Origin: Henricia sp. BOLD:AAB3569 | Lineage: Eukaryota > Echinodermata > Asteroidea > Spinulosida > Echinasteridae | DNA length: 64,000 bases | NCBI GenBank assembly: GCA_037783545.1 | Contig: JBBELK010000006.1 | Coordinates: 1,004,501-1,068,500, forward strand | Direction of reading: 5' to 3' | Shown: positions 271-36,034 of the stretch, piece after piece | Numbering within the stretch: the first letter of the stretch is position 1 | Layout of the letters: every line of letters begins with the position of its first letter | Position numbers and translations under genes: made by a program | Notes under the pieces: generated by a model | What the model was told of the DNA's origin: nothing | Databases searched by the model: none | Seen by the model: the letters and a program-made list of their open reading frames with translations, nothing else

Positions 271-625
271 CTGATTTGTCCAATTTGAAAACCGTCGGCT
301 CCTTAGCAAAGTAACCATCTGACTTGGCTTCCTGGCAAACGGCCTCCATCATCTCCCGCCGCTCCTCCAGGATTCGAACCGTCTCATTATACATAACCAA
401 GATGTCCTGTGGCACCACCTCGGGTCCACTGTCCGCCGGGGGTGCCGTCAGGCCAAGCTTGCTCAAAATCTGGGCCTTGATCGCCGAGAGTCGCCGGTTC
501 TGGTACTCTTGAAAGTTGAGTTTACACTGGCCCGTGCCGCCCGTGGCCGTCCGCAGCAGTAGCGAGCATAGCGTTAGGCAGGCCACGGTGAGATGGAGGA
601 GTGATGCCCGATGGAAGGCACCCAT
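271..625 (-). CDS. TGF-beta family ligand, first coding exon (N-terminal signal peptide and start of latency propeptide), partial gene
   Basis: Secreted growth-factor precursor; this exon gives residues 1-118 plus one base of codon 119. The ATG at 625-623 opens a hydrophobic signal peptide (about residues 1-29). Next come Cys34 and the helix ending AQILSKLGL, matching the alpha-1 straitjacket of TGF-beta1/2/3; the family's equivalent Cys bonds LTBP or GARP. A proline-rich lasso, an N-glycosylation site YNET (Asn80), a Cys97 as in TGF-beta2/3, and the fastener-like YFAKE (residues 105-109; YYAKE in vertebrates) follow. The exon ends in a consensus donor, CAG then gtgagt, at 270. A longer frame reaches 781 but its upstream part has no family resemblance. 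The furin site and mature cystine-knot domain lie off the left edge. Assignment to TGF-beta proper rather than BMP/activin is strong; the 1/2/3 subtype cannot be given. Confidence 0.9.
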
Positions 626-1019
626 CCTTCCACGGTACCTCTGCTGGTATACTAGTATAAGATCCCTTACTTCGTACGCACACTTCAGCCACAAACAATT
701 CCAATAACGCGTGTGCTCAACAATTAATAGGCCCGGCTGCCAAACAGTTGCAAAACTTTCCAGTGCCGATGTACCAAGCAATACCCTCTTTAGCCGAGAT
801 GTCTTAATTAGCGAAGACTGGCTCTACAATAGTGGACACTCCTTTAAATAGCTCTGCGTAGACATACACTGTTTGCGTGCACATTCACTCATGCTATCTC
901 ATACTAGCCATCTATGTTCCAATCAGATACACCAATGCGATTGTGAAGCAACACGTTCTTGTATTCACTACACTTATCGAGCTTTCTGTTCTACCGAATA
1001 CCATTACAGCAGCCAAGTG

Positions 1020-1027
1020 CTTATATA
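1020..1027 (-). promoter_or_regulatory. Candidate TATA box for the TGF-beta gene
   Basis: Reading the minus strand, TATATAAG occurs about 395 bases upstream of the TGF-beta ATG. It would put a start site near position 990 and give a 5' UTR of roughly 370 bases. The match is good but a single 8-mer is weak evidence. Between 626 and 1,500 I see no other clear element; a CRE-like half site (TGACGT) lies near 1,168. Confidence 0.3.
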
Positions 1028-5311: not shown

Positions 5312-5448
5312 AAGGCACAGGCTCGTCAGCAATGCGCGCGCGCCAAATTCGTGCCACGAAATACGCAGCTCCATGCCTTTGCTATATGGAGCTGCGTATT
5401 TCGTGGCACGAATTTGGCGCGCGCACATTGCTGACGAGTCTGTGCCTT
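5312..5448. repeat. Near-perfect hairpin, 63-base arms
   Basis: Left arm 5,312-5,374 is the near-exact reverse complement of 5,386-5,448 with only an 11-base spacer. Both arms include the GCGCGCGC-rich part and a shared TTCGTGGCACGAATT-like block. Very few mismatches mean recent formation or ongoing homogenisation. Confidence 0.9.
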
Positions 5449-5485
5449 TAATAAGGTACAAAAATTCCATCGGTGTTAGGGCAGA

Positions 5486-9305: not shown

Positions 9306-9965
9306 TAGACCCTTTGCACGGGCAGCCATGACAGGGAATAGTCACATTGTCACCATGCGTCAGCGTCATGCATGATTAGGCACTTTGTGGATATATTGTC
9401 ACACGGCTGGGGTGATACTATATACCGGAAAACACCGGAAAACACCGGAAAATACCGGAAAACACCGGAAAACTCACCGGAAAACACCGGAAAACACCGG
9501 AAAACATACTAAATACCGGAAAACACTAAATACCGGAAAACACCGAAAAACACCGGAAAACATACTAAATACCGGAAAACACACTAAATACCGGAAAACA
9601 CCGGAAAACACACTAAATACCGGAAAACACCGGAAAACATACTAAATACCGGAAAACACACTAAATACCGGAAAACACCCGAAAGCACTTAATAACACCA
9701 CCCCCACTACCTGCAGAAAACACCATAAAATACTGTTTTCCGGTGTTTTCCGGTATTTAGTATGTTTTCCGGTATTTAGTATGTTTTCCGGTGTTTTCTG
9801 GTGTTTTCCGGTGTTTTCCGGTAAATAGTACTACCGCACGGCTGCCGGTGCAATAGTCTGGTACCCGGACCAAAAATGTTTTGACTAGACTGAATTTAAG
9901 TCATATTCAGTCGTTGTATGTGGAATATGTGGACCGGGAACCAGTCTACCGGTGCAAAGGGTCTA
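9306..9965. mobile_element. TIR element carrying a minisatellite (TAGACCCTTTGCAC ends)
   Basis: TAGACCCTTTGCAC at the left is mirrored by GTGCAAAGGGTCTA at the right. Between them 9,423-9,690 is an array of ACCGGAAAACACC with ACTAAAT variants, and 9,735-9,830 is the same motif in inverse orientation. A solo TIR-like copy occurs at 36,099, in the RRP15 3' region. Confidence 0.65.
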
Positions 9966-10404: not shown

Positions 10405-10505
10405 AGTCAATTCGGTCCCAAGTGGTCTCGGTCAACTCGGTCCCAAGTCAACTCGGTCCCAGGTCAACTCGGTCCCGAGTCAACTCGGGCTCAGGACAAC
10501 TCGAC
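10405..10505 (+). repeat. Minisatellite, 16-base GTCAACTCGGTCCCAA unit
   Basis: About six units of a 16-base repeat. The same unit in reverse orientation forms the longer array at 11,779-12,155, so the two arrays bracket the inverted repeat at 10,735-11,643. Reading frames through the array are artefacts of its period. Confidence 0.85.
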
Positions 10506-10734: not shown

Positions 10735-11643
10735 GCATGAACCTACTTTTAGAAGGCTAAAAGTGTTGTTTTGGACGTTTATATTGGGACGTTATCATTT
10801 TCTCTATTACACTTTTAGCCCCTTAACATTTTAACCCCATTCGCTATCGTGAATTTTGATGCACGCCCTCAAGAGGCAAAATATCGGCGTGTATAATCTT
10901 ACCGTAAATTCCAAATCAGACATTTAAAAGCACAACATCGGGGACCTTGTAATCTCAAGACTTCTGTACCCTTGTCGTTCACTGTCCATGATGACTCAAA
11001 CATCAAAAAAGGATAAAAGGGAGCAAAATCTGGAGTAAAATCGAAAATTATCAGCCAGCGCGGTACACAGACTTCATGCTGAGACGCGTCAAAAGGAAAG
11101 TAGTCCCACCAACGCGGATAGATTTTGTTTAGCCTAGACTTGACCCCTGTCCACATATTTACTTCCCCACGCGTTGTATATGAGCGAGAGCAGCGTAGCG
11201 CACATAGACAGGGGGCCAGTCTAGGCTAAACAAAATCTATCCGCGTTGGTGGGACTACTTTCCTTATGACGCGATCATTTAGTAGCGAAATCAACATGCA
11301 TGACATGGTCAAGTCTCCCGTCTGTCCAAATTTGTCGATTTTACTCCAGATTTTGCTCCCTTTTATCCTTTTTTGATGTTTGAGTCATCATGGACAGTGA
11401 ACGACAAGGGTACAGAAGTCTTAAGATTACAAGGACCCCGATGTTGTGCTTTTAAATGTCTGATTTGGAATTTACGGTAAGATTATACACGCCGGTATTT
11501 TGCCTCTTGAGGGCGTGCATCAAAATTCACGATAGCGAATGGGGTTAAAATGTTAAGGGGCTAAAAGTGTAATAGAGAAAATGATAACGTCCCAATAAAA
11601 ACGTCCAAAACAACACTTTTAGCCTTCTAAATGTAGCATGAAC
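10735..11643. repeat. Large foldback, arms about 420 bases
   Basis: Left arm about 10,735-11,155 is reverse-complementary to about 11,198-11,643 with few mismatches; some small indels occur. The centre holds GTCCACATA-type sequence. No protein is encoded. The structure is symmetrical with the flanking minisatellites, so the whole 10.4-12.16 kb block behaves as one inverted unit. Confidence 0.85.
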
Positions 11644-11778: not shown

Positions 11779-12155
11779 GGTCGAGTTGTCCTGGGGTTTA
11801 GTTCGTTGGGGCTGAGTTGACTTGGGGCCGAGTTGACTTGGGACCGAGTTGACTTGGGACCGAGTTGACCTGGGACCGAGTTGACCGGGACCGAGTTGAC
11901 TTGGGACCGAGTTGACTTGGGACCGAGTTGAGTGGGACCGAGTTGACTTGGGACCGAGTTGACTTGGGACCGAGTTGACCTGGGACCGAGTTGACCTGGG
12001 ACCGAGTTGACCTGGGACCGAGTTGACCTGGGACCGAGTTGACCTGGGACCGAGTTGACCTGGGACCGAGTTGACCTGGGACCGAGTTGACCGGGACCGA
12101 GTTGACTTGGGATCGAGTTGACCTGGGACCGAGTTGAGTGGGACCGAGTTGACCT
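11779..12155 (-). repeat. Minisatellite, 16-base TGGGACCGAGTTGACC unit, about 22 copies
   Basis: Tandem array with CT/CTT and GGG variants. It is the reverse complement of the array at 10,405-10,505. All frames look open because the repeat lacks stops; the 147-codon frame here is not a gene. Confidence 0.9.
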
Positions 12156-12205
12156 GTACCCGTTTGATGAACTCAGCTGAGGGGTACCGGTACATTACCA
12201 TAGGC

Positions 12206-13848: not shown

Positions 13849-15995
13849 GTAAGAAATTATAATAAATTTTCTCACGTAATAGCCTATCCCAATCAGTGAG
13901 AAAGAACTGTGTTTTGAGACCACCAGTTGGCTTCATAGCTCAATTGGTAAGGTGTCTGCACGTTAAGCAGAAGGTCCGCGGTTCGACTCCCGGTGGAGCC
14001 AAGCTGTTTTTCACTGTACCCAGATTTCCTAAAGTCATGGACATTTGTCCACATGTGTCAAATTAATTCACTCCGATGGTCCCTGGATCGTCATCCCTAA
14101 ATAATCACATATTCATACTGAATCTTTTTTTCTTTCCTTGGCATCAACTGAGGCCACCAAGGCCAAATGGCCTCATGCCCTGATGTGCTTGTTCTCCCAA
14201 ACAATCGTGGACGTTTTAGGGAGGTCTAACAAAGAGAACAATATCGTCCGCGATTGGCAAGCGAACGTCCGCGATTCGCTCTTGTACAAAACCAACGAGA
14301 GTAAGGAAAAATAGACTATGTACAAACAAAAGAGGAACAAAGGGACGTCCGCGATTGTATGTGAGTTTACACCTGCATGAGTTGGTTCCAATGCCGCTTC
14401 AAGATCTACACTTTCTGAGGCCAACTTGGCCAGCATGCCCTATCCTCTTAAATTGCATGGGTCTTGTATACACTAATAACCAGTCGAATTTGGAACGAAA
14501 TGGGCCGTGGTGCCCCTTCAGTTTACCTCAGTGGTTTTTCAAATTTGGACAAAATCAAGACTGGGGCAACCTGCCCCTTACACTGCGTTTAAACTCAAAC
14601 CGCAAAGAAGGATACAGACACTCGGCATTTTTATTGCGACCGCAAATCTACAAATTTGCCGTGTTTACATTACATCTTGATTCGGCTTCAACCTGCCTTT
14701 CTGACCATGAAGGTCACCGCTAATTGTGACCACAGCGCATGTGTTGGCTGTTTTGTGTTGCGTAACTGCCGATAGATTTGTCAGATAAATCTACCGCACG
14801 CTGCGCATTGCAAGGATGTTTAAATTGCCAAATCTGTATTCGAGCAGTGTTTTGAGCGACCGCAGCAAAGCGCGGGTACCGCGCATGCCCCTTCCTTTCC
14901 TTTTTTTCCTTTTTATCAACCCTACCCAAAAGGTGACTTGAAAAAGGCGAATCAGACACGATCACACAAGTCTGATTCTCTTTTTTCAATTCACCTCTAC
15001 GTTTACAATTAGTGCCTACCTGGCTTCAACTCGCCTTTTTGAAAATTGATTTTGATTTGGCAAAGGCGAATCGAGTGTAAGCACGCCTTTATTTGCCTGA
15101 AAGTGAATACAGTACATTCTGGACTATTGATTGGTAACACATAGCAGTCGATAAAATATATGCAGAAAATGAATGTTGGTTTCATAGGTTGATGGCATTC
15201 TACCCACTGCCATGTGTTAAAAATTAACTCTTTTTCTTTGTAATGGTATGTGGGAATATGATTTGTTAACTCCTTCGTACATAATCAAGACTTAAACTGA
15301 TAAATTAAACAAAACACAGTAAAGGTAGTGGGGGAGTTCAGTTACAATTTAATAACCTTTTTTCCAAATGGCATATACCGTAGTCAAATTATCAACATTT
15401 TTGCAGGCCCACAGGCTGAAGGGATCGTAGGGAGGGGTCAAACAAACCCCAATCTACAGTAGATCCTAAGGTCTGCACATAAATGTTTTAAGCGTACTTT
15501 ATGATGTCATTGTTATGTCCATCCTAGATTTTTATCATTGTCTGTTGTCCTTGGAAAAGGGAAATTAGTCCACCCTTTTGCTAAAAAAGAACTGCCCCCT
15601 TCCACACACTGCCCCCTTCCATCTGACAAATGACCTACAGGCCTGTTTTGTTCCCTGTATGGTTGACCTTAGGTACCGTGGCCGAGTGGTTTGGGTCACT
15701 GACTCGCAATCACAGGTGAAAGCTTGGGGTTGCAAGTTCGAAACTCACCCCGGCTAGGGTACCTGTGCCCTTGAGCAAGGCACTTTATCACACTTGCTCC
15801 ATCCTGCGGAGGGGATGTAAAGCTGTTGGTCCAGTGTGTTACCGGTAGGTATCAGTAACGCACTTTAAAGATCCCAGAGCATTCTTTCGTGAAGAGCAAG
15901 GGGATTCCCTGATGACTCTGGCCGTTTCCTCACCCGTGCGAGCGACAGTGCAATGGGCACTTTTGAGGAGTCCTTGGTTTTAGTACCAGAAAGAA

Positions 15996-16026
<31 letters not shown>

Positions 16027-19000
16027 TCACTTAATGCAGCAATGGGGCGACCCGACCCGACTTTGCCACACGACCACCGAAATTTCGGCTAAAAGACATC
16101 CATTGGACACCAAATTTCTGTAACCCAAAGCTTCCGAAAATGGTTCCACACCTAATAAAAATGCTTCTAAACCTAATAAAAATGGTTCTCGATTTGAAAA
16201 AGATGGATTTTGACCTAAAAAAAATTTGATTTTGACTTCCAAAATATTGGGGCTACACCAAATTGTCGCCCTAATAGAGCGTGTCGCCCTAATAGGGCTC
16301 TCTACACAAAAAGTGTCGCCCCATTGGATAAAATAGAGAAATAAAGGCCTATAGTTTCGAGGAGATCACTTTCTGGCAAATTGAAAATGATTGAAAATGT
16401 TGGAATTGCTCAAGCCTAGTAATAGGGGGCTAAGATAAAAGTAGAACGCAAATATGCAAATGTGAAATGCCTTGAGCTCTGAGGAGATCTTCCAACATAT
16501 AAAAACCGAAAACCCCACATAAGGGACTTTTGTGCCGAGATAACTTTTGAATGATTTCCGGTGCTGGAAAAATTCCACGTTCACATAAATTTGGGTTTTT
16601 CCACAGTAAAGAGGGTAATTTGGCAACACAAACCATATTTTCGAGGAAATACCTTTGTCTGGTCTCAAAATAAAAGAAATAAGTTTAAATGGTTCTGAAG
16701 AGATAACTTGGCCCAAAAAGGGTTACAAATAGTGCGACAACATGCCTTTCTAAAAACCCTGTGTACAAATTTCCAATATGCGCTCGTAATCCGTTCGGAC
16801 ACTTGTGTTACGGTACATTTTAGGCCGTCCCGGTTACAAGCGTATATTGGAAATTTGTACACAGGGTTTTTAGAAAGGCATGTTGTCACACTATCTGTAA
16901 CCCTCTTTAGGCCTACATGTAAGTTCAGAACAACTGAGACTTATTTCTTAATTTTGAGACCAGACAAAGGTATTTTCCGGAAAATATGGTCTGTGTTGGC
17001 AAAATGGCCCCTTTACTGTGGAAAGATTCATTTACGTTTTATGTGTATCCAAACCTTTCTAATAATGCATAAAATGACACCAGTTTCTCTCTTTGTAATA
17101 TTACAGGACCTTGCCAACAATGCAGAGTATCTAATCATGACCACGCCAGACAATGAGAAGTACCAATGCATTTTGCCAGACGACGACAGTCGGAAGCGAC
17201 AAAATCAAGTGAACTACGTCGGACCCTCTGCTGCTGATCTCATGCAAGCAGTTTTTAAAGGAATCTGCACAATAAGGGTGAGGCATTGTTAACGGTCAAT
17301 TTCATGCAGAGTAAACACCGAGGAAAACCTGAGGAAGCATAGACCGTATCGAATAGCTGCCATTTCGTGAGGCACCTCCTGTTAAACCGTTTAACAATGG
17401 AAGCACAAAATGTGGAACCATGCATGTCCTCAAGGAACAAATAAACTGCCCCACGAAATGGCGGCTATTCGATACGGTCTATACCACTGTGCCTCATAGC
17501 TCAGTTAGTAGAGTATCTGCCCAGTGTGAAAGTGGTTTTGGGGAAACCTGAGGGAGTATATACCACTGTGCGTCATAGCTCAGTTGTTGGACTATCTGCC
17601 CCATGTTTCAGAGGACCTGGGTTCTAATCCTGATGAGGAACATATGATTTTTCATTCAGCCTATGCTTGGTAGTTTCATTTCCATGGCGAAGAGACACCA
17701 TACATGTATTGGATGTTGTGCTCCTTACTTTGCCCAGTTGCGCATCCATGCAATGCCAAGTTTGTGTTTGCAAATTTTGTAACTGACATTTGGAGAATTG
17801 TCACTGTCGAAATTAACACTGGTCCTGTAGTCCGAGACCAGTAAAAAAATCAGAAGGACCACTAGATCTGTCAAAGATGCTGGTCCGATGGACCAGTGAA
17901 AACATTTCCTGACTCATGGAAACATTCTCTGATACCTAATCCACAGTAAACATTTCTTACTCAATGCAAAGAATTCATGGCTGGTTACCACAAACAATTC
18001 CTAATCGCTTTAGACATTTTCAGATAACTACATTTCTTTCTCCGATCTCTCCAGACATGCCCCAGTGTTGGATCAAAAAGCAACCCCATCCTTCCTGCAC
18101 TCAATGATCTTAAACCAGAAAGTGTTGCAGTATCTCGGTGCAAATTTTCAGCAGGACCAGTAGAATTCTCTAATCTACTGGTCCTTCTGACCAGCATGAA
18201 ATTCAGGTTAATTTTGACCCCTGCTTGTCTTTGTAACAGATGGAAGCATACTGGAATTTTGAACTCTGCCATGGGAAGCATGTGCGACAATACCATGAAG
18301 AAAAAGAAGCTGGCAAGGTACGTGTATATGATTCTACGAAATCACTCACTCATTCCAATTTTTTAATAGGTACATGTAGTTGGTACTACACAATTGGAAA
18401 ATAAAATAGAACGGCAAAGACATGCTAAAGGACTTTTTGACGTGCACTCATCAGAAAGGAAACTGCGGAAAAGTTTAAACATTTGGTAAAATTGTAATAA
18501 GACGGCTTACCACATTGCACCCGAGTATTGAATTGCAATAAATGGCTGACTTTTTGTAGAATATTGAAGAGCGAATTTAATAATGAGGTTGCAAGTTCGA
18601 GTTTTCTCAAAAGTACGGCGCTGGTTTTTGCTCAGGTTGGTTTTTATCATGCATATCTTCAATCACACTGGAGGATAAAACCATTTGTAAGAGTTTACCA
18701 ATCATGTATACTATCTTTAAGTAAGAATCAAGAAAGAAAAAAACGGATTTTGAAAATTTAAGTTATTAACTACGAATTATAAGATTTATAATTTTTTTAA
18801 AAATATTTTGGGAATTTAGGAAACCAAACGACAGGAGTTCTTCCTTGGTAGATCTATGAAGTCCCCAGAAGGCACCAAATTCAAGTTACAAACAGAGACA
18901 GAAATTCATGGAACTTACGATAATTTAAAGGTCAGTATTATGCAGAACCATTTTCTAAGCCAGGCACATAGGCTTGCCTTTGAAGGAGCTTGTCCAGATT

Positions 19001-22000
19001 TTTCCAGAAAATGGATTTCGTTCTAGCCTAACAATCATATAAAATACCTCCCCACTATCCGTGGAAAGAAAACAGGAATTGGCAAACCCCAATTTGGATG
19101 TGGAAGCAAAAAGGTTGGTGTAATCGCTGCACTGCTTTTTGGAACCAGAGAAATTAAACTTTGGTGGATTTTTAATGATATACCTGTAAATATACGGATT
19201 GAGGGCGCAAAATTTCAGAATGGTGATGAGAAAAATATGACACGTGATATGGTATCAAAATCTCAACACTCATGGGAAAAATATGGGGTTCAAAAATGTG
19301 ATCTGGTCACGCTCCTTTAAACTGCAAAATATCCAAATTGACTTGGGGCCGACTTCACAACCCATTTGTGGTGGATTGTCACAAGTATCTACGTGTACTA
19401 CGCCCAACATTAACAGTACATGTAATGGGTACGTATGTGTACACTGTACACATACATGTATGAGCGTACGCGCACATGTACAACATGTGAAGCCCGTTTC
19501 AAGAAAAATGCATGTATCTCTAATTCCCTACGTCAGAAATTTAATCATTTATTTTTCATCACGGAGACACGTAAGCTTTCTAAATTCGTTTGCTTGTGTG
19601 AATTAATTTTTTAATCCTTTCACCCAAACACGGACAGTGCAACTTTAACACTAATTTCATTCTGCCAGATTCCAACCATGACCATCGACAGGAAAGAGAT
19701 CCCCTTCTATGAGGTTTTAATGGACAACGGCACGCTATGCACTCTGCGCGGAAACACGCCGCGACTGACGCGCGTACGATACATATGTGAAGAGATGGGC
19801 AGGAACGAGTTGTTGTCAATCAAAGAAACGAGTACCTGCGAATACGAGGCTGTCATACTCACGCCAAACCTGTGCAGTCATCCTCTGTACAAGTGAGTAT
19901 TATTTGTGATGTGATCAACAAAATCGGTCAAAATACGGCGATTATTGTTTTAAGATAACGGGCCAAAATACGATTTTGGAAAAATCTAAAGTGGCTTTTT
20001 TACAAAAAGGAAAACATTCTTTTACGTGAAAATAATCCTTGAACTAAATTCTGTCCAGCTTCGGTGATTGTCAAAAAACCTGAAACTATTTCCAAAAGAA
20101 GCCTTTGTTTGACACAACGTTCATTAATTGCCTGATGTTCAAACGATTGTAATTTTCTTAACCAAAGGTCATGTAAAAATGTGGTCCTTGATCGCACCAC
20201 ATTTAAGCCAAAAGTATTTTCCATTACAAAAATATGATGTCCAGTTGTTACCACACTTGCTCATCTCCCTAATAATAATTTCAGTATATTTCACATGGGG
20301 TGGGCTTGAACAGTTAACAGGCTGATGTGGCATCTTTAGGCTGGCATAATTTGTCATGAATGTTTTAGTCAAATGTCATTTCGCTTTTGGGACGAGACAT
20401 ATGGGATTTAGGGATAACCAAAATTTAGATTAAACAAATTAAAACTTACACAAACTCCTGGCAGTTTACTTAAATTAAATCTTGTACAGACAAACAGTAA
20501 ACTTTCAAAATTCTTTGTTTTATTGAAAGAACCGAGGTCATGGACAACTTACATTGTTTGTTTTACATTACTGTGGTGGAATCAAATGTTTGAATTTCGT
20601 ACCATTTTCAGGCAGCGACAACCAACGATAAATGCCATTAACTGCCACGCCATAAATGGAGCGCCCCCACGACCGCTCGGTTACGAGCAACTGTACAAGG
20701 ATACGAGTCGTCGAGAACAGTTTACATCACCAACGGTACAACATTTCTCCCATTCATTTCCCCATTTTACTCCTGGCAATTGGAATTACACGCTCCGTTT
20801 AACCACTTTACGCCGGAGGACGCGCTAGTTTCCCCTAAACACGTTTAGGGAAAATTCATTTGTTTACAGTATTTGACATTTACACTCGCAATAATTTCCG
20901 AGGGAAATGGCCAAAACAGTTCATAACAAAGCTACATTGGGCTATACGCTGGCAGAGTGTGACGTAAATTTCCGCGCGGATGCGTTCACTTTTTTGACAA
21001 CAGTTCACGCTACTTGCATGGCAACGCGTTTCTCCATTCGTTTTGCATATGAGCCACAGAGGGAACATTTTCTGTTGAGTTTTTCTGTTACAAACATCAC
21101 AAAATAAGGCGGTATGGTAGCGTATCGCTATGAGACTCGGTATGAGCAAACCATTGCAAGTCATTATGGTCTTTATTTTCAAAAATTGTTTCCTAAAAGA
21201 ATAATAGTAAAGTACTTTGTGCGCAAACACAATGGGTGTAAAACGTGAGCAAGAACCAGTAACCATAGTTACGGTCCAGCACCCGCAATGTGACGTCACG
21301 ACTCTGCCAGCGAATACAATGACAGTGCATCGTCATAACAACAATACTTACCGAGCATGGTAAGTGAGTTAAGTTGTATTCCTCCATGCTTCAACTAAAA
21401 ATAAACCCGCGCCTACGTACAATAAATGTTAAATAATTCCGGCGTTAACTGGTTAAAAGTGTTGGCCGTTTCTACCGACAAAATACCATTGTGCGCTCTA
21501 GGAAAAAATCCCAGAGTAGTTTTTAATTTGCTGCTGCATACTCGGGCAAATAATCGTATAAGGCTGTTTCTACTGAAATGATAACTGTACTGAAATGTTT
21601 CCAAAACTATACCCAGCACGATATGGGGGCCTAAGGACTCCACCCTGACCGCCCCTATGACTCCACACACTCTTCCCTTTTGTTAACGCACCAACTCCCC
21701 CTAAAAACTGAAAGAAATTCCAAATGTTTGAGACACAATGGGGGGGAACAATAGTAGGGGGGTGGGGGTACCCTCGGCCCCATATCGTGCTGCATTTATC
21801 CAAAACGGTTATCGTGCTGTATACCCGTGGGATTAGAGTTAAATTTAGCTCATTTCCATGGGGTTTTTCTTTAGCAATATTTTATTTGTGCTGGGGCATG
21901 GAATTGTGATTTTTGTTTGGTCATTTGTGCCCCGCTCTGCAAAACAGCAGCCGATTTCAAGAAATTTTACGCAATTGCGCAAGTCCACTTACGCCATTAC

Positions 22001-25000
22001 TTGCACAATAATTTATGGCGTAAGTGGACTTGCGCAATTGCGTAAAGTTTCGTGAAATCGGTTGCTGCTCTGCAAAAAACACAATGGAAATTCCTGGCGG
22101 TGCCCAGATACTGCCTGGAATGCTTGTGCCCAGATACTGCCTGGAATGCTTGTGTTCCACCTGGAATTTCCATTGTGGTTTTGTATTTTAATGAGCGTGG
22201 ATGTGCCGCAGATTTCTTCTTATTGTCGCACAAAACTCGACCTAGCCTACGCAACTTAAGAGCCTTTTTGCACAGCAGGTCATTTATTTGTTTGTTCTTG
22301 CAGGCAAGAACCACAACCAAAGATCCAACATCAACTGAGCCCCAAGAATCTCCCACAGAAGCTGCAGCCAAGGCTGCATTGAAGCAGAGAGCCCCACAAC
22401 CAGTCCTTATTGACAAGCAGATTCTACATGACTTTCTCAATGGAGATCACTGCCTACATGGGGTCAGTGGACACACAGCCTATCGTAAAAACCTGTGTTT
22501 CAAACACACTTTTGTTCACTGCAGCAAAAATCTAAAGTTTAAGGTGTGCCTTGTATACAGAAATAGCCGGCCATGGCATACACATCATATGGCAGTCATA
22601 TCTGCAGTAATTGCACCACAATTTGCACTACAAGTTGTGTGTGCCAAGACCACCACTCAATGATAAAAACATTCTACACCCTTACCAATGTAATTGTTTT
22701 TTCTCTTTCTGTAGGGACAAGGATGGTGGAAGTATGAATTTTGCTATGGGAAATTTGCACAGCAATATCATACGGTAATTTTTTTCTCATTTGGGATTTG
22801 ATGCTGTCCCTTATGAGATTATCTTTCAGACATACCTTAGCAGCTTGTTTTATTATGTTAGTGAACAACACTCTTATCGAACTAGGCTTTGCCTCCCTTG
22901 CCCAAGGACAGAATTTGATAAGAGCACTTTTCCATTTCGGGGTGTGCAATCATGGAACAAACTGCCATTGTTACTGAAGCATCCTCTTCCAACAAGCTTA
23001 AACCTGTTTAAGGAGCACCTCTCCCAAAATCTGTTAATGTTTTGTAATTGTATTTTTAATTAATTATCTTGCTGTTTTAATGTTTATTTTTTACATATTT
23101 TAACTATTTCGAACTGTTAACTGGGACCTATGGGAGAACAGTTTTTTATAAACTGAATAGGTTCCCCTGTATAAATAATAAATAAATAAGTAAATAACAA
23201 ATCTTTCAGAAATAAGTTGACATTTAATCGTCTTGACACTACCTATGGCTACCTATAGTTTTATACGTTTGGAAAAGCAGGTAATTTGTTAAAAGGCCAT
23301 AGCATCATTGACGGGCTGAAAGACTATTTTTTAAAAGATTTACTGGTACAATGTTATTACATCTCTAAAGACGAATGTTGGTAAACTATCCTCCAAGTGT
23401 TTTTAATGATTAAAAGTGGTTTCCCAGTAAAAAATAATTATTTTTATTTGAACAAATGCCACTCAAATTTAATGTTTGTGTGTAGATATGGCACTAAGGT
23501 TAATGCAAACTCATTCTACATCCAATTTTCATTGGCGTAGGTAACCCGGGACACCAAACTCCTATTTTGTAAAATCCTGGATAGAGAGAAGCAATTTATG
23601 ACAAAATGCCTTAATAATAATAATCAAGGCACTCTCACATTCTCTATCATTCTTTACTTCAACTCCCTGAGAAGCATACAACCCTGCCTAGTTGCTAAGG
23701 AATTGCCCGTATACATGTACATACTCATTTCTTTCCATTTTGTAGGATGTTAAAACCGGCACTACGGTAATTCTCCTTGGATCATGGAATAAGGAAGAAC
23801 ACATTAAATGGTGGATTGAAAACAAACGAGCCATTGGACCAAAGTAAGTGTGTATGAAAGAGGCATGTAGGCTCTGTTTAGTAGTAAACTATACTGGTTA
23901 AAAAGATTTGTGCTCAGCATTAGTTGGTAGAGTACCACAAAAAGCAACACACATTACATGGGGTTTCAGCTAGTATTCTGTTTGTGCTAAGCATATTTTG
24001 TTTTGGCTGAGCTGAACAGAGTTATACAAATACAACAGGGTTTGAGGGACTATCTTCCAAGGTGCAGCCAAGGGAGAGAGTTCCATTAAGCCTAGCGTAC
24101 ATCGACCTTGCAACTGGAAGCAACTTAACTGATCAGTTGCTGCCGATGTGCGCGCACATCGTCAGAAACTGATTAGTTGCGCAACTAGCGGCAACTGGAA
24201 GCATCCAGCCATGTCTACATATCCAGTGCGTACATCGACACAGCAACTCGGTAAAGCCAAGAGTACATTGACCTTGCAACTGGAAGCAACTGTTGCTTGC
24301 AGTTGCTGTCGATGTGTGCACACGTGATCAGATGCACGCATGCAGCTGACAGCAACTAGTTGCAAGTACGCGTACATCGACGCAACTGACCGCAAATGGG
24401 TACAACTAGTTGCCAGAAAGAACATGAGCAACTTGCGGCAACTGGGATTTTTCCAGTTGCTAGTAGTTGCAAGTGTGTGTACATTGATCTTTTTAAGCAA
24501 CTAATCAGTTGCTCCCAGTTGCCGCGAGTTGCTTCTTGTTGCTGGAAACACCATTTGCCACTAGTTGCTTCCAGTTGCAAGGTCGATGTATGCTCGGCTT
24601 TAACATTCAGAATTGCTGGGTATTTTCCTTTAATTGCCAAGATAATCAAAGGGAATCAAAATCTCCAAAAGACAGAATCACGATTCCTATTCTTAACTTG
24701 AAATCGATTCTAATCGACTCCAGACTCACCTAGCATACAGAACACTTCTTGTTGGCCATTTCATGGCTTATTTTTTTTTAACCAGCTTCTTGACTTTCTT
24801 TGTTTCAGAAGTGTGACCCATTTCTATGGCCATGGTGATATCTGTGATGTGACTGGTCGACCCAGGATGGCCCAAGTCAAGTTAAAATGCAAGGAGGACA
24901 TGCAGCCTACGGCAGTTGCTATTTACCTGACAGAGCCCAGGGACTGTGAATATGTACTAGGGGTGAGTTGGCAAGGAACTCATTCAGTGTAAACTTGTAA

Positions 25001-27044
25001 TTAAAGGAGCGTGACCAGATCACATTTTTGGAGCCCCCATTTTTCCCATGGGTGTTGAGATTTTGATACCATATCATTTGTCATATTTTTCTCAGTACCA
25101 TTCTGAAATTTCATGCTCTCAATCCGTATATTTCCAAGGATATCGTCAAAAACCCATCAATTTATCTGGTTACATCAAGCAGTGCAGTGATTACACCAAC
25201 TTTTTTTGCTTCCATATCAAAGTTGGAGATAGCAAATTCCATGTTTTCTTCCCATGGATAGTATTTTGAGGAGCTATTTTTTATTGTTGGGTTAGAACAA
25301 AATCCATTTTCTGGAAAAATCTAAACACGCTCCTTTAATGGTCCTGAAATGAGAATGTTAACATTGAAAGTGCATATGTGACCCATTCTGGTGAAATGAG
25401 TTGAATGTTGAGCAGTCTGACCTGACTTTTTCCAACCAGTTCTAGAAATCAGCAGTTGATCCAGGATCATTAAAATACAAAATCATAATGAAAATTCTGG
25501 GTGGTACCCAGAAATTCACAGAATGTCCATTATATTGCATTTTAATGGGTCTGGATCCACTGCTGATTTCCGTCTGTCACAAAAACTGTGCGCTATCCAG
25601 CTCATTTCACCAGAATGGGTCTCACATATGTGTCTGTTTTCAATACTGGAGAGACCTTTTCCTCCAGGATTATATCTCTGTACAATGTCATTCATCTTCT
25701 CTCAAAACAAAAGAAATATCTTAAGATAGATCTAAGGAGATAGCTTTAGCTAAAAAACTGCAACGAATAGTGCCAAAACGTACCTTCCTAAAAGCCCCGT
25801 GTGCAAGTTTATAATATACCGGACACCAAAGTACGTGTCCTATGTTACATACGTTAAATAGGAAATTTGTACACAGGGTTTTCAGAGAGGTATGTTGTTG
25901 CACTATTTGTTGCTTAAGTTATCTTCTTAGATCTGTCCTAAGATATTTATTTTGCTTTAAGAGAAAATAACTGGCATTGCACAGAGTTATGATACTGGTG
26001 AAAAAGTCTCTCCAGTATTGAAAACTTATATGGGTCATTCTATAAATTTGGGGTCCAACGTGTGACATTTTCCTGTCCCTGTTACACCTGACATACTGCC
26101 ATTTGCCAAACAAGTATTATTAAAAATGCCTTCAAAACATATTTTTATGAATTGTACTTTATGTAATCACTCTTTGAAATAGAAAGCATTTAAAGAATAT
26201 GTCCTGAATTTACAAAATACAACATTTTACAAGATGTCAGACGTAACAGGGGACAGAAAAATTGGACCCCAAATTTATAGAATGACCCATATACCAAGTA
26301 CTTTCCCGAGACATGCGCTAAAACCTTGGTGTACTCGGGTGGGACTCAAACTCATGACCTTCTGCACACTAGTAAAAGTGCATACGAAATCGTGTAAGTG
26401 CGAATTACATGGGAATTATACCCAAGAATTGAAAGACCTTGTGTTCAACAAGTATAGCTTGTACGTTATTGCAATGCAAAGAACAAGAAATATTACCTAC
26501 TGAAAAGTGGATATGAACTTCACAAAGAATGTCAATTGCAGCGATGCTTTGCACTATGGGTGCTGCCATTTTGTCGGAATACTGGACAAAGAATGACGTT
26601 TTTGCTGACAACTTTTTCGTGTAATGCCATTGTCATAGGAATGTACGAAGGACTTGTCTGCATTCTTTGCCCAGTATTCGGACAAAATGGCAGCGCCCTT
26701 CGTGTAACGCATCGTTAAAATTGCCATTCTTTCTAAAGTTAGTATCCGCTTTTCATCAGTGGGTAATTTCTTGTTTTTGCATTAAAATAATTTGAGTTGC
26801 ACTTGTTGAGCACAAGGTCTTTTGTTTCTTGGGTATAATTCCCATTTAATTCCATTTGAAAGATCTGAATGACTGCCAAAATTCTTGCAAAACCAGTCAT
26901 GCATATTGCCTTTAAGTATTCAACTTATGGTAAAAACATTTCTTTGTGATTTTTTTCCAGGTGGATTCTCCCATTATATGTTCACTCCTAAGTACGGCAG
27001 ATGAGTATGGAATTTTACATCCTTCCCCAGCCTCAGAGCCATAA
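13711..27044 (+). CDS. ERLEC1: Endoplasmic reticulum lectin 1 (XTP3-B), complete spliced gene, 11 coding exons, 466 residues
   Basis: ER-lumen lectin that reads mannose-trimmed N-glycans on misfolded proteins and hands them to the SEL1L-HRD1 ERAD complex (family knowledge). Coding exons: 13,711-13,848; 17,107-17,277; 18,240-18,317; 18,820-18,930; 19,669-19,892; 20,612-20,735; 22,304-22,462; 22,715-22,774; 23,746-23,843; 24,809-24,962; 26,961-27,044. All junctions are GT-AG and phases agree through to the TAA. Residues 1-27 are a signal peptide. MRH domain 1 spans exons 2-5 ([31 protein letters not shown]), MRH domain 2 spans exons 7-11 ([26 protein letters not shown]). Both keep the paired cysteines, the Q of QYH and the E/Y of CEY. 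Length is close to human (483). There is no membrane segment and no KDEL. Introns 1, 2, 4, 6, 8, 9 and 10 carry repeats. Confidence 0.96.
13929..14000 (+). pseudogene. tRNA-like sequence (tRNA pseudogene or SINE head)
   Basis: 72 bases with a pairing 7-base acceptor stem (GGCTTCA/TGGAGCC), a perfect B box (GGTTCGACTCC) and an A box (TAGCTCAATTGG). A 5-base anticodon stem (TCTGC/GCAGA) exists, but the loop has C instead of T at position 33 and the D and T stems are broken. It would read anticodon GTT. Lies 80 bases into ERLEC1 intron 1, so a working tRNA is unlikely. Confidence 0.5.
14001..15670. other. ERLEC1 intron 1, left part
   Basis: Intron DNA. GTCCGCGATT recurs three times between 14,240 and 14,355. 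CCGCAAA/GGCGAA-rich segments near 14,560-14,700 and 14,990-15,110 look like diverged arms of one element. No exon with splice sites could be supported. Confidence 0.4.
15671..16026 (+). mobile_element. tRNA-derived SINE, family 1 (in ERLEC1 intron 1)
   Basis: A box GTGGCCGAGTGG and B box-like GTTCGAAACTC, then the conserved body and an (AAT)n tail of about nine units. This is the most complete copy and the best reference for the family. Confidence 0.85.
16582..17045. mobile_element. Foldback element with a nested inverted repeat, next to ERLEC1 exon 2
   Basis: Outer arms (about 16,582-16,670 and 16,955-17,045; AAAGGTATTTTCC and TCCACAGTAAAG blocks) enclose an inner inverted repeat, 16,718-16,908, with ACCCTGTGTACAAATTT arms. 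The inner motif recurs at 25,736-25,925 and 53,940-54,130. The element ends about 60 bases before exon 2. Confidence 0.7.
17107..17277 (+). CDS. ERLEC1: ERLEC1 coding exon 2 (start of MRH domain 1)
   Basis: Residues 47-103, phase 0 at both ends. Contains [11 protein letters not shown] and the FKGICTIR cysteine. Acceptor ttacag, donor gtgagg. Confidence 0.92.
17340..17481. mobile_element. MITE, TAGACCGTATCGAATAGC family, copy 1
   Basis: TIRs of about 30 bases (TAGACCGTATCGAATAGCTG and mirror) around a spacer with GGAAGCACAAAATGTG. Other copies: 46,729-46,878 and 51,950-52,080. Confidence 0.85.
17499..17645 (+). pseudogene. Two tandem tRNA-like fragments
   Basis: CATAGCTCAGTTAGTAGAGT (A box) near 17,503 has no B box. 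A second unit from about 17,571 has both CATAGCTCAGTTG and GGTTCTAATCC boxes. These look like degenerate tRNA or SINE heads; both lie in ERLEC1 intron 2. Confidence 0.4.
18240..18317 (+). CDS. ERLEC1: ERLEC1 coding exon 3 (MRH1 tryptophan/QYH segment)
   Basis: Residues 104-129, 26 codons, phase 0. Encodes the glycan-binding strand with ELCHGK and the glutamine of QYHEEK. Acceptor aacag, donor gtacgt. Confidence 0.94.
18604..18722 (+). repeat. Partial copy of the TTCGCCCCAAA-family flank
   Basis: Matches the 3' part of the repeats at 36,713, 40,102 and 59,055 (CTGGTTTTTGCTCAGGTTGG, CATGCATATCTTCAATC). The TTCGCCCC minisatellite itself is absent. Lies in ERLEC1 intron 3. Confidence 0.6.
18820..18930 (+). 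CDS. ERLEC1: ERLEC1 coding exon 4
   Basis: Residues 130-166, phase 0. Encodes [14 protein letters not shown], matching the EYYLG segment of the family. Acceptor tttag, donor gtcagt. Confidence 0.92.
18981..19320 (+). mobile_element. TTAA/GGAGCGTG MITE family, copy in ERLEC1 intron 4
   Basis: Left end AAGGAGCTTGTCCAGA is mutated; right end TGGTCACGCTCCTTTAA is intact. Internal sequence is collinear with 25,001-25,338 and 31,003-31,318. Confidence 0.7.
19669..19892 (+). CDS. ERLEC1: ERLEC1 coding exon 5 (end of MRH domain 1)
   Basis: Residues 167-240 plus two bases. Carries RYICEE, the [10 protein letters not shown] motif with the E and Y that contact mannose, and the closing NLCSHP. Donor gtgagt after AA. 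Confidence 0.94.
20612..20735 (+). CDS. ERLEC1: ERLEC1 coding exon 6 (inter-MRH linker)
   Basis: Completes codon 241 and encodes residues 242-282. [16 protein letters not shown] matches the INDIFCQSLPGSPFKPL-type linker known from vertebrate ERLEC1. Acceptor ttcag; donor gtacaa is weaker than the others. Confidence 0.88.
20880..21940. other. ERLEC1 intron 6, unannotated part
   Basis: Mixed-composition intron DNA. A CCCCATATCGTGCTG segment near 21,780 mirrors CAGCACGATATGGGG near 21,614, suggesting a small decayed foldback. No exon found. Confidence 0.35.
21941..22073. repeat. Inverted repeat, about 60-base arms, in ERLEC1 intron 6
   Basis: Arms read AAGTCCACTTACGCCAT with TTGCGCAATTGCG-type blocks and are mirrored across about 18 bases. 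Probably a MITE. It is followed by a segment (22,078-22,250) shared with the MITE at 6,835-7,130. Confidence 0.75.
22304..22462 (+). CDS. ERLEC1: ERLEC1 coding exon 7 (start of MRH domain 2)
   Basis: Residues 283-335, phase 0. A Thr/Ala/Pro-rich linker, then [19 protein letters not shown], the first half-cystine of MRH2. Acceptor gcag, donor gtcagt. Confidence 0.92.
22715..22774 (+). CDS. ERLEC1: ERLEC1 coding exon 8 (MRH2 double-tryptophan motif)
   Basis: Residues 336-355, only 20 codons. [19 protein letters not shown] holds the WW and Q of the mannose-binding site. Acceptor tgtag, donor gtaatt. Confidence 0.94.
22785..23200 (+). mobile_element. Truncated LINE, 3' end of reverse-transcriptase ORF and tail
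   Basis: 22,791-23,063 translates to a C-terminus typical of non-LTR retrotransposons (QHSYRTR, then [13 protein letters not shown], then [11 protein letters not shown]). An (ATAA)n-rich tail with CCTGTATAAATAATAAATAA follows. It is 5'-truncated, sits in ERLEC1 intron 8 in the gene's sense, and lacks the catalytic domain. Clade not assignable. Confidence 0.7.
23400..23575 (+). repeat. Dispersed repeat shared with the 38.1-38.5 kb element
   Basis: AGTGGTTTCCCAG, TTTAATGTTTGTGTGTAG and GGTAACCCGGGACACCAAA blocks are collinear with 38,175-38,340. The copy at 38.1 kb lies inside a TIR element; here no TIRs are seen. Confidence 0.6.
23746..23843 (+). CDS. ERLEC1: ERLEC1 coding exon 9
   Basis: Residues 356-387 plus two bases. 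[12 protein letters not shown] matches the family's GTWNQEEHIEW segment. Acceptor tgtag, donor gtaagt. Confidence 0.93.
24086..24603. mobile_element. Foldback element rich in GCAACT/AGTTGC
   Basis: Left end (ACATCGACCTTGCAACTGGA) is mirrored at the right end (TTGCAAGGTCGATGTATGC). The interior is repeated GCAACTGG/AGTTGC words, and a second copy of the end appears near 24,258, so it is composite. In ERLEC1 intron 9. Confidence 0.75.
24809..24962 (+). CDS. ERLEC1: ERLEC1 coding exon 10 (MRH2 core)
   Basis: Completes codon 388 and encodes residues 389-439. [17 protein letters not shown] and KLKCKE match the family closely; [11 protein letters not shown] carries the E and Y of the sugar site. 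Acceptor ttcag, donor gtgagt. Confidence 0.96.
25001..25338 (-). mobile_element. TTAA-flanked MITE (GGAGCGTGACC TIR), full copy in ERLEC1 intron 10
   Basis: TTAAAGGAGCGTGACCAGAT at the left, the mirror CACGCTCCTTTAA at the right. Orientation is opposite to the copy in intron 4. The best-preserved member of the family. Confidence 0.75.
25490..25930. repeat. Repeat shared with 53.8-54.26 kb
   Basis: CAATACTGGAGAGACCTTTTCC, CTTAAGATAGATCTAAGGAG and an inner inverted repeat with GTGTACAAATTT-type arms occur here and, partly in reverse, at 53,838-54,255. Likely a large foldback family; ends not determined. Confidence 0.55.
26030..26290. mobile_element. MITE, ATATGGGTCATTCTATAAAT TIR
   Basis: TIRs of about 31 bases, nearly exact, ending ...GGGGTCCAA. 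A related element with diverged TIRs (ATGGGTAATTCCC) is at 38,106-38,545. In ERLEC1 intron 10. Confidence 0.75.
26409..26845. mobile_element. Foldback element in ERLEC1 intron 10
   Basis: ATGGGAATTATACCCAAG at the left is mirrored by CTTGGGTATAATTCCCAT at the right. Inner arms include GCCATTTTGTCGGAATACTG and its mirror. No protein coded. Confidence 0.75.
26961..27044 (+). CDS. ERLEC1: ERLEC1 terminal coding exon 11
   Basis: Residues 440-466 and TAA stop. [17 protein letters not shown] holds the last MRH2 cysteine and the conserved C-terminus. Acceptor tccag. No AATAAA is evident within 300 bases; candidate poly(A) words are the ATATAAA near 27,829 and the AATAAA near 28,446, so the 3' UTR end is unclear. 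Confidence 0.94.
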   Translation: MDSPIICSLLSTADEYGILHPSPASEP

Positions 27045-30330: not shown

Positions 30331-30339
30331 GGCAACCGA

Positions 30340-31937: not shown

Positions 31938-32054
31938 ATGGAGGAAGGCACGAACTATACGTTCAAAAAGAAGTATCACAAACAATATGGCGGCCTCCAC
32001 GATTGCACATGGTCGTACGACGACCGCAGAAAATGTCGTGTCATTTGTCGACTC
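31938..32054 (+). promoter_or_regulatory. Overlapping upstream ORF at the RRP15 start
   Basis: An ATG at 31,938 opens a 38-codon frame ending at TAG near 32,052-32,054, overlapping the RRP15 ATG at 31,987 in another frame. If transcription starts upstream of 31,938 it would reduce RRP15 translation. If it starts between the two ATGs it is irrelevant. No TATA box is obvious. Confidence 0.35.
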
Positions 32055-32170
32055 TAGTGTCAAAAAAGACCATTTAAAAACTCTAAAAAGGTGGAAACCG
32101 TTTGTTAAGGTTTCGTATGACTCTGGCAGCGACGCAGATGTAGACAGCGAAGAGGAACGAAGGAAGGAAG
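31987..32170 (+). CDS. RRP15: RRP15 exon 1
   Basis: Residues 1-61 plus one base. [10 protein letters not shown] start; acidic cluster [16 protein letters not shown] at the end. Donor gtaacg. The N-terminus is poorly conserved in the family, so the start is chosen as the first in-frame ATG. Confidence 0.8.
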
Positions 32171-35100
32171 GTAACGTGAAAAATCGTCCGTTGAGTTGAC
32201 TCGTTGAGACAACTCGACCGTTGGTGTTTTAACTGAAAGACAAGTTGTCCGGGTAAAAATTGAAGGGTCAACTCGACCGTTTGCCAACTCGACTCGGTCC
32301 AACTTGACCGCGCCTAAGCCAACTGGACCGAGCGTAAACCAACTGGACGGCGCGTAAACCAACTGGACCGCAGTGGGCTTGGCCACAGTCATGACAGTGG
32401 TGTCGCGATGGGCCTTTCGCGTTCGCGAACAACTCGGACAACGGGTGCATTAAAACTACACGGTTTCAGAAGCCGCAACTCACCCTATTGTTACCTTACT
32501 TCATTTGGAACTTTTTCTCATTTTTTTCCTTGCAAAGTGGGCTCACCATCGAAGACAACAAAGAAAACCACAAGAAAAAAGCGGAAGCTTGAACCAACAG
32601 CCAACCCAGCTGACCCAATAACCCAGGCCGATACCGATGGGGAGGCCAATGACCCCAAACCCACCAAGGCTGAGGAGAATGACGAGCCGCGAGTCCCCGG
32701 GGCAGGATGGGCCGATGCCATGGCAAAAATCCTGGGCCGTGATGTGCCGGCCGGGGCTGGCTCTGTCGTCCTGGCCAAGTCCAAAGATTATGAGAAGGCC
32801 AAGAAACAGGAACATGAGGAGATTGCTGATAGGAGAAAGGAGGTGGGTATTGGCAGTTCAAGAAGATTTGTTTGATCCCTGGGTTTTTTTTGTGTGTGTG
32901 CTTTCGTCCTATATGGTGGGCCTGAAACCTGGACACTATGCAAAAAAGCGCAAGATTTATTTCAGTATTTGACTACATCTCCAATGCCACTATTGAACAG
33001 AAAACCAGTCTTGGGAGCATTTTGTCGGATATTGCAGGGAGGAGACACTGCTTCTTTGGCCATGTTCAACGTTTCCATACTGCTGCTTTGGCTGGCCTTG
33101 CTCTTGATGCAGTCCAGTTCCACCTTGGACAATTGCTGGGAAAGAATTGCAATTCGGAGATCACTATTTTTCCTTAAAATGACTAAAGCCACCAGTAAGT
33201 GCAGATCTAAACAGAATAACAAAACTTTTGCAGGAAAAATGATGATTCTCCGAGGAAAAACTTGGGTGATGTCCGACTTGTACATTTTTTCCATCAGTTG
33301 CACATAAGTTGCAATAAATTTGAAAAATCACAGAAAACTGCTTTTGTTTAAAATGTTGTTTGCACACATCTACTCAACAGTACTGCATAAAAAAACCTTG
33401 AAGCCCAAGACAAGCTGCTAAATTTGTAAAAACGCTAAATTTGTAAAAACAAATGTTGCGTTATTAATAAAACAGGAAATTATAAATGTGTCAGTAATAA
33501 GCTTTTGCTGATAGATGATTTTATTGTATATTGTGATTTTTTTGTTGTCCACTAAAATAATCTTTTTATTTTTCAGAAAAATTGTGAAATGGGACAAAAC
33601 TATAATCAGTATGTCTGTTTGCAAATTTCTGTTACACACTTTCCCCCCCTCCCCCTAGAAAGAGACTAAAAGCCTGTTGGAACACATTGGTCGAGCAAGA
33701 CCCAGAGTAACAGACAAAGAAAAAGAGCGGAAACTCCAGAGAATAGCAACCAGGCAAGTTTTCAGTATTTTTTATTGGGGCAGACGCAATTTTCAATAAG
33801 CCTTTTCGATATCTCGTGCGCGCAAGGGATTCTGGGATTGAATGTGGATAATCAAACCCACACGTGGGCGGAGCGTGCTATCTGTTAGTGTACGAACGCC
33901 GTGTGAACACAGAGTTCAAGAATCAACCTCTCACCACTTATTTGTTACATATCAAACATACTGACAAGCATGTCCCGAAACGGAAATGTTGCAATTGCGA
34001 GTAATCATCATCGGGGATTCCCTTCGTGGCTGGAGAGTCCGTGTAAACAAAACTCGCAGTGCAGCACACTCAATCCACACTCGCTGTGCCGATACGGCAT
34101 GTATTGCATTGCACATATACCTAGCTACGAGCACGATACTCGAACACTCCCACTACGAAGGGAATCTCCGATGATTTCTCGCAATTGCAACATTTCTGTT
34201 TCGGAACATGTTTGTCAGTATATTTAATATGTATCAAATAAAAAGTGGTGAGAGGTTATTTCTTGAACTCTTTTTGGTTTTCGTGAAAAAGTGCTAAATT
34301 GATAGCCCCTACTGTATACACACGGCGTTCCTCTTCTGTGGCACTTTGTAACCATGCTAAGGAACCTCATGGGTGGCTACATGGCAACGATTTGACTTAA
34401 ATCGGCTAATCTCTGCAACCAGATTCCTTTACTTGGACTTGAGTCGAATCATTGGTTTTTAGATGAGAGAGAGCTTCAAAAGACTCCTTATTTGAAGAAC
34501 AAATGACTTGGACCAAATTGTCAACAGTATTTTTTCTGTGGGCTATTCATTGCAGAGGCGTTGTCCAACTCTTTAATGCCGTCAAGAAACAACAGAAGCG
34601 ATTTGCAGACAAACTCGAGTCAACACACTCTGAGAAGGAGCGTGCCGAGGTGAAGGGTGCAGTCAGTAAAGGGGAGTTTCTTGATCTCCTCAAAGCCACG
34701 CCTGTCCTCACTAAGAGGGGTGTCGGCAAGGCAAAGGTAAGATGGTGGATTAGCTGCAACTCTGAATTAGATTGTGTGAGTCCATGTTGAGACCAAAATG
34801 AAAAATGTCCGTTTGTGATCATCGTACGCACTGTCAGAGACCTTGAATGAACAGAATGGAGTGTTGAGCTGTGCCATAAATGATGCATAGAATTTAGTCG
34901 TTTAGAAATATCTGAACTAAACACGAAACATGGGTCTCTGTTTGAACTTTGAACTCTCTGCATGTCATCTTGATGTTTGTCCAGTGTCAATCTGGCCTAA
35001 AGTAAAAAAACCTAAAATAAAAACCTGCTTTGCCAAAAATGCATGCGTCTGACAAAACCCTGAATGAACGTATAATTCCGGTAACTGGGTCTTTCCCCGT

Positions 35101-36034
35101 ACATCCGTCATAGATTCCACTGCATGAATTGTACATCCACGCGCGACCCATCCCCTTCACATATACAATCTTACAAATACACGTAACTTGTTTGAAGTGA
35201 AGACAAAATGTAACAGCTTAGAAACAACACAAAATGTACGGTTCATACACCGAATGAATTACAGCTAATGGTGGATATACTTTAGAGTTCGGAGTGCCTC
35301 TCAGATTTTTGTGTAGTTGTGCCATTAAACATGCTCAAAATAAAAAGGATATCTTCTTCAAATTCGAGTTGTCACAAAGTTGGGAGAATACCAAACTCTG
35401 TGAGTTGATGGTCTTGAAAAATGACTGGACTTAAAACCACGGTACATCGTTTGCAGTTACCCAACATTTTACTTAACGAGATGACAAGAAAAACCTGACT
35501 AAAAGTGTTAATAGCAATGGTGACAAACATGATTTTTTTTGTGTACATGTAAAATGGTATCTTTGTGAGAGAAATTGCTAACTAAAGGTGCTTTAATAAA
35601 AATTTAAAAATATAATTTAAAAAAATAAATAAATAACAAATAAGAAATATAACAAAATAACAAAATTAATTTTTGTATTTTGTATTTATTTTTTATAAAT
35701 TTTTTTTTACCATTTATTTAACACAAAAACCATGCATGGATTTTCTGGAGTACATGTATTACTACATATATATGCCTGAAATTTCTACAAGGCAGTTTAT
35801 CAACATTATTCTTTAGTTATGTAATGCTGTTGTTCCTGTTCTTAAACATTTTCCAATCATGTAGTCTGTCTTAAAATTGTTGCAATTGATAAATATGTTT
35901 GTTGTTTTGTGCTTCAGGGAGACACCAAGTCAGCCGCCAAGAAACCAGCATGGAGTGTGCTCCAAGATGACTTCATGATGGGTGCTAGTATGAAAGACTG
36001 GGACAAACAAAGCGACAGTGGGACTGATGAATAG
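31987..36034 (+). CDS. RRP15: RRP15-like protein, complete spliced gene, 5 exons, 293 residues
   Basis: Nucleolar pre-60S ribosome assembly factor needed for large-subunit rRNA processing (family knowledge). Coding exons: 31,987-32,170; 32,538-32,842; 33,659-33,753; 34,556-34,736; 35,918-36,034; phases agree throughout. An acidic/Ser N-terminus is followed by a Lys-rich stretch ([10 protein letters not shown]). Next come [26 protein letters not shown] (spanning exons 3-4) and the C-terminal [14 protein letters not shown], all hallmarks of RRP15. Length is close to human (282). Intron 3 has a GC donor (CCAG then gcaagt). Candidate poly(A) signals AATAAA lie at 36,410 and 36,425, after a decayed duplicate of the terminal exon. 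In human the gene neighbours TGFB2. Confidence 0.95.
32200..32400 (-). repeat. CAACTCGACCG minisatellite in RRP15 intron 1
   Basis: Degenerate tandem CCAACTGGACCG/CAACTCGACCG units. Related in sequence to the GTCAACTCGGTCCC arrays at 10.4 and 11.8 kb. Confidence 0.6.
32538..32842 (+). CDS. RRP15: RRP15 exon 2
   Basis: Residues 62-163. Lys-rich putative nucleolar signal, an acidic/proline linker, then [15 protein letters not shown] and the charged helix [16 protein letters not shown]. Acceptor caaag, donor gtgggt. Confidence 0.92.
32890..33150 (+). pseudogene. Decayed LINE reverse-transcriptase fragment in RRP15 intron 2
   Basis: One frame gives [15 protein letters not shown], another continues as [20 protein letters not shown]. 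This resembles the YGAETWTL...RLRWLGHV tail of many non-LTR elements, with a frameshift between. No intact domain remains. Confidence 0.5.
33659..33753 (+). CDS. RRP15: RRP15 exon 3 (GC donor)
   Basis: Residues 164-194 plus two bases. Encodes [14 protein letters not shown]. Acceptor is a strong C-rich tract ending tag. The only donor that keeps R-G-V-V in frame is CCAG|gcaagt, a GC-AG intron. Confidence 0.92.
33894..34330. mobile_element. Foldback element in RRP15 intron 3
   Basis: Long mirrored arms: GAACGCCGTGTG near the left end and CACACGGCGTTC at the right. Inner blocks AGAGTTCAAGAA, CCTCTCACCACTT and GAAACGGAAATGTTGCAATT are mirrored too. It fills over half of the GC-AG intron. Confidence 0.8.
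34556..34736 (+). CDS. RRP15: RRP15 exon 4
   Basis: Completes codon 195 and encodes residues 196-255. [14 protein letters not shown] is the most conserved RRP15 segment; [13 protein letters not shown] matches the SKKDFISVLRG region. Acceptor tgcag, donor gtaaga. Confidence 0.95.
35440..35790. repeat. Dispersed repeat (GGTAACAAACA family) in RRP15 intron 4
   Basis: Shares the TACATCGTTTGCAGTTACCC start, the TGGTGACAAACATGATTTT core and the CATGGATTTTCTGG end with copies at 4,780, 44,260, 48,420 and 62,545. An AT-rich expansion sits inside at 35,590-35,710. Confidence 0.6.
35918..36034 (+). CDS. RRP15: RRP15 terminal exon 5
   Basis: Residues 256-293 and [22 protein letters not shown] is nearly invariant in the family. 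Acceptor ttcag. The sequence from about 35,993 to 36,096 is duplicated downstream. Confidence 0.95.

Follow-up and report, generated by a model that had tools for sequence, protein, structure and literature searches.

The locus analyzed here raises the question of how old the linkage between TGF-beta and RRP15 is. RRP15 helps to build ribosomes, TGF-beta is a signaling molecule, and we saw no sign that their products work together. A first-pass annotation of the window (the whole 64-kb stretch of DNA analyzed) had placed a minus-strand TGF-beta exon 31 kb from an intact plus-strand RRP15 gene, with ERLEC1 in between, and had proposed that the pairing predates the vertebrate genome duplications.

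We identified one TGF-beta exon in the window.

271..625, minus strand: coding exon 1 of TGF-beta (sensu stricto), with the protein start, a cysteine of the prodomain, and the first part of that domain; GT donor at 270-269

The exon is 355 nt long and runs from an ATG at 625 to position 271, where it ends in phase 1, as does exon 1 of human TGF-beta, and is followed by GTGAGT. Pfam TGFb_propeptide matched the corresponding minus-strand frame (263-823) with an E value of 1.5e-6 (28.5 bits; cut-off, 25.8). When this frame was compared with the PDB sequence set, all 15 matches up to an E value of 10 were to TGF-beta1, 2, or 3, and TGF-beta2 (proprotein; E, 1e-12) ranked first. In the third PDB alignment, a CK near the prodomain start aligned with the CK of TGF-beta1; we take this cysteine to be the one linked to LTBP (the latency link). 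We concluded from the sequence that the exon is part of a true TGF-beta gene, its prodomain being nearer to TGF-beta1/2/3 than to other members of the superfamily. No further TGF-beta exons were found within the 64-kb window, and the ligand domain lies outside what is seen; the remaining exons (ligand domain, furin site, and RGD) presumably sit past the left edge. In a scan of viral contigs, the exon matched one locus (L001), inside an 811-aa phage-type frame. We dropped this match as chance; we read the frame as encoding an RNA polymerase.

RRP15 was resolved into five exons.

31987..32170, plus strand: RRP15 exon 1, with ATG at 31987; no Pfam match in its frame, placed by frame and splice sites
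32538..32842, plus strand: RRP15 exon 2; Pfam Rrp15p below cut-off, RRP15-like protein, splice sites
33659..33753, plus strand: RRP15 exon 3; tblastn with human RRP15 (E, 5e-4), followed by the GC donor GCAAGT
34556..34736, plus strand: RRP15 exon 4; Pfam Rrp15p (E, 2.9e-12), RRP15-like protein, splice sites
35918..36034, plus strand: RRP15 exon 5, with stop at 36032-36034; tblastn with human RRP15 (E, 2.5e-11)

The gene is intact (31987-36034), the five exons joining in frame without a stop to encode 293 aa, and the end coordinate given by the first-pass annotation, 36034, is exactly that of the RRP15 stop. The Rrp15p match in the exon 4 frame scored 47.5 bits against a cut-off of 27, and that in the exon 2 frame fell under the same cut-off (20.8 bits; E, 4.8e-4). 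For both exons, the best PDB match was the RRP15-like protein 8fkp_NG (E, 1.9e-5 for exon 2 and 1e-4 for exon 4), from what we take to be a human pre-ribosome structure. All introns are GT-AG apart from the third (33754-34555), which has the donor GCAAGT and probably belongs to the GC-AG class, uncommon but well established among introns.

The gene between TGF-beta and RRP15 was located by tblastn, for which, as for RRP15, the query was the human protein.

17107..27044 as found, plus strand: ERLEC1 (ER lectin 1); tblastn with human ERLEC1, PDB matches for two exons, splice sites
17107-17277, plus strand: ERLEC1 exon
18240-18317, plus strand: ERLEC1 exon
19669-19892, plus strand: ERLEC1 exon
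20612 on, plus strand: ERLEC1 exon, end unsure
Within ~22303-22460, plus strand: ERLEC1 exon, ends unsure
22715-22774, plus strand: ERLEC1 exon
23746-23843, plus strand: ERLEC1 exon
24809-24962, plus strand: ERLEC1 exon
26961-27044, plus strand: ERLEC1 exon, with stop at 27042-27044

The exons found by tblastn span 17128 to 27017, and splice sites, judged by eye, widen this to 17107 and to the stop. Missing from the exons located in the window are the first coding one and some short ones. In the tblastn alignments, identity to human ERLEC1 is 53% and 60% for the two best exons. Two exons matched 8kes_E ("Endoplasmic reticulum lectin 1") in PDB with E values of 1.1e-19 and 3.1e-23, and the nearest OS-9 matches for the same two exons had E values of 9.5e-6 and 2.3e-5, respectively. 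Pfam matched the ERLEC1 frames with PRKCSH_1 alone, under its cut-off. We concluded from these similarities that the intervening gene, being closer to ERLEC1 than to OS-9, is ERLEC1, the gene named in the first-pass annotation.

The Pfam scan covered 29 of the 151 frames of at least 80 aa, plus one 43-aa stretch. Among these was a set of 20 stretches that gave no match above cut-off, one of them matching DUF7066 below it (E, 0.078). The frame at 22046-22663 holds an ERLEC1 exon yet had no Pfam match, indicating that the scan can miss exons, and there may be another gene besides ERLEC1 between TGF-beta and RRP15. Two long frames showed coding bias in a ranking that was applied solely to unnamed frames and for which one training segment contained a stop codon.

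42160-40793, minus strand: 455-aa open frame to the right of RRP15, with strong coding bias at 42055-41696
50962-50276, minus strand: 228-aa open frame, with moderate coding bias

Neither frame had a Pfam match or a credible PDB match. The 455-aa frame is likely a gene, judged by its coding bias.

Over the whole window, Rfam gave a single match at gathering score, a tRNA-like sequence at 13929-14001 (49.4 bits) outside the located exons; ARAGORN does not call a tRNA there, and the sequence is possibly a tRNA-derived repeat. Nine weak microRNA matches, all under gathering score, were set aside. Several repeats were also seen. A near-perfect palindrome at 5315-5450, upstream of TGF-beta and read by eye, is perhaps the remnant of a small transposon. 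An array of short units (~10 and 19 bases) at 9417-9822 has an inverted copy alongside. An inverted repeat at 10743-11636, between the TGF-beta exon and the first located ERLEC1 exon, has 305-nt arms that are 98% complementary and 284 nt apart, and is perhaps a recent fold-back element. A minisatellite at 11814-12156 has a 16-base unit (21.7 copies, 93% matches), and a shorter array related to it lies in the opposite sense at 10424-10503.

Within 36 kb, the order is TGF-beta exon 1 (minus), ERLEC1 (plus), RRP15 (plus). TGF-beta and RRP15 are transcribed divergently from ATGs ~31.4 kb apart; the TGF-beta ATG is ~16.5 kb from the first located ERLEC1 exon, and the ERLEC1 stop is 4.9 kb from the RRP15 ATG. 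Pfam, PDB, and splice sites thereby confirmed the arrangement originally described. That the two genes were brought together by an assembly misjoin or by contamination is very improbable. The window is rich in repeats, which are where misjoins happen. It contains no N, its GC content is even (0.41; range in 4-kb steps, 0.355-0.448), and 36 repeat alignments (51 to 525 bases) connect the TGF-beta side, the ERLEC1 stretch, the RRP15 stretch, and the right half, with every pair among these four segments having at least two repeats in common. A foreign chimera is unlikely for these reasons, which do not count against a misjoin within the same genome.

We compared this arrangement with what is recorded for vertebrates and other animals. 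In human, we take RRP15 and TGFB2 to have the same orientation, with no ERLEC1 between them. Pairs of genes in ancient metazoan microsynteny were reportedly described in Irimia 2012. The sole TGF-beta synteny study found, PMC8931421, is restricted to vertebrates and sets lamprey against coelacanth, zebrafish, mouse, and human. TGF-beta2 has RRP15 beside it in human, mouse, and coelacanth, and in lamprey RRP15 is closely adjacent to TGF-beta2B; in the excerpts consulted, RRP15 is named with lamprey TGF-beta2B and not 2A, and is not named for zebrafish. The human pairing given by the first-pass annotation agrees with this. With a lamprey TGF-beta2 included alongside those of the three jawed vertebrates, the RRP15 pairing dates back at least to the vertebrate ancestor. 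The same study places ESRRG near lamprey TGF-beta2A and links ESRRB to TGF-beta3; TGF-beta2 and TGF-beta3 thus each have an ESRR gene nearby, the pattern expected from duplication of a single ancestral block. It gives true TGF-beta as confined to deuterostomes, with one copy each in sea urchin, acorn worm, sea squirt, and amphioxus (PMC8931421). The ERLEC1 identities of 53% and 60% are consistent with an invertebrate, a closer match to human being expected of a vertebrate, and we take the window to come from an invertebrate deuterostome. ESRRG, RRP15, SPATA17, TGFB2, and USH2A are listed with one vertebrate cluster of 72 ultraconserved elements, classed as a "winner" in 5/5 fish (PMC3436827).

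The present window shares with the vertebrate neighborhood of PMC8931421 the closeness of the same two gene families. It differs in that the genes are divergent, ERLEC1 intervenes, and a single TGF-beta exon is visible; the pairing described there is, as far as the excerpts go, vertebrate only. The cluster of PMC3436827 lists both of the genes paired here. SPATA17, the ESRR DNA-binding domain, and LYPLAL1, used as queries because they represent vertebrate neighbors of the pair, had no credible match in the 64-kb window (best E, 1.8, 1.1, and 2.4, respectively). Ancient metazoan microsyntenic pairs, such as blocks of the pharyngeal cluster (PMC11175523), likewise keep unrelated genes, one of them developmental, close for hundreds of millions of years; those are reported across phyla, whereas TGF-beta/RRP15 is seen here in one window beyond the published vertebrates. 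Among the matches listed, we found no comparison of the TGF-beta/RRP15 neighborhood in invertebrates in the open-licence PMC literature, and the match for ERLEC1 with RRP15 was, by its title, a mouse implantation paper. RRP15, TGF, and ERLEC1 are absent from the excerpts of PMC11175523 and PMC13317027, which concern echinoderms or hemichordates.

If, as the genes suggest, the pairing is present here in an invertebrate deuterostome, a pre-duplication origin is the simplest reading, and linkage predating the vertebrate duplications is the likeliest one, based on one genome plus the published vertebrates. Descent from such a neighborhood is likelier than a chance re-encounter, in which the two genes would have come close independently here and in vertebrates as order was shuffled within chromosomes. 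We regard such a re-encounter as somewhat unlikely. Few genes land at random within two places of a given other gene: rough arithmetic, done without a tool and assuming 25,000 genes and 22 chromosomes, gives ~1 in 6,000, or 1 in 280 for genes already on the same chromosome, figures weakened by the many gene pairs from which the first-pass annotation could have picked. What tells against descent and in favor of chance is that order and orientation differ from those in human, that ERLEC1 lies between, and that none of the three other vertebrate neighbors tried (SPATA17, ESRR, and LYPLAL1) has a credible match in the window. In addition, two hemichordate genomes have no apparent microsynteny between them, so local order can scramble strongly (PMC11175523). 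Descent is also weakened by the naming of RRP15 with lamprey TGF-beta2B alone of the two lamprey copies and by its not being named for zebrafish in the excerpts (PMC8931421). The age of the vertebrate pairing itself argues the other way (PMC8931421). The original proposal that local order has changed fits the position of ERLEC1 and the human orientation. The proposal of a pre-duplication pairing held in part: it is supported by the RRP15-TGF-beta2 pairing of lamprey and jawed vertebrates (PMC8931421) and weakened by the single genome, the altered order and orientation, and the unmatched neighbors.

Linkage might also have been actively maintained, if TGF-beta enhancers lay in or beyond ERLEC1 and RRP15 and selection forbade breaks, making the locus a genomic regulatory block with bystanders. 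This is a stronger form of the descent explanation and compatible with it; we consider it unlikely. The shared listing of RRP15 and TGFB2 with the 72 ultraconserved elements is in its favor (PMC3436827), although that cluster may serve ESRRG instead of TGFB2. In a human cell line, RRP15 lies within the TGFB2 chromatin domain, and knockdown of Fra-1 acts on TGFB2 and leaves RRP15 expression unchanged, which is what a bystander looks like (PMC10354941). A regulatory element in a neighbor's intron is, on these grounds, plausible in vertebrates; in this window it is hypothetical, and the inversion and the intervening ERLEC1 show that breaks are tolerated here. Less likely still, TGF-beta may have originated, in deuterostomes, within a regulatory domain of which RRP15 was already part, with enhancers in the RRP15/ERLEC1 stretch keeping them together since. 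Under that scenario, the domain around human TGFB2 would be as old as the TGF-beta ligand itself.

Overall, the best explanation, and one that we consider probable, is that the TGF-beta/RRP15 neighborhood was inherited from a pre-duplication deuterostome ancestor and persisted by slow local rearrangement. That ancestor would already have had the two genes as neighbors before the vertebrate genome duplications. Afterwards, one side would have been inverted, and ERLEC1 would have moved in between or, alternatively, been lost from between in vertebrates; following duplication, RRP15 would have been kept beside TGF-beta2-type copies. The most likely route of persistence would be slow rearrangement within the ancestral chromosome, possibly helped by RRP15 being a bystander inside a stretch regulating TGF-beta.

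The TGF-beta/RRP15 neighborhood would be a modest addition to the known ancient conserved gene neighbors. Knowledge of the original neighbors of TGF-beta would show the genomic place in which TGF-beta originated, would help to assign the vertebrate copies to particular duplications, and would identify the old parts of the regulatory domain around human TGFB2.
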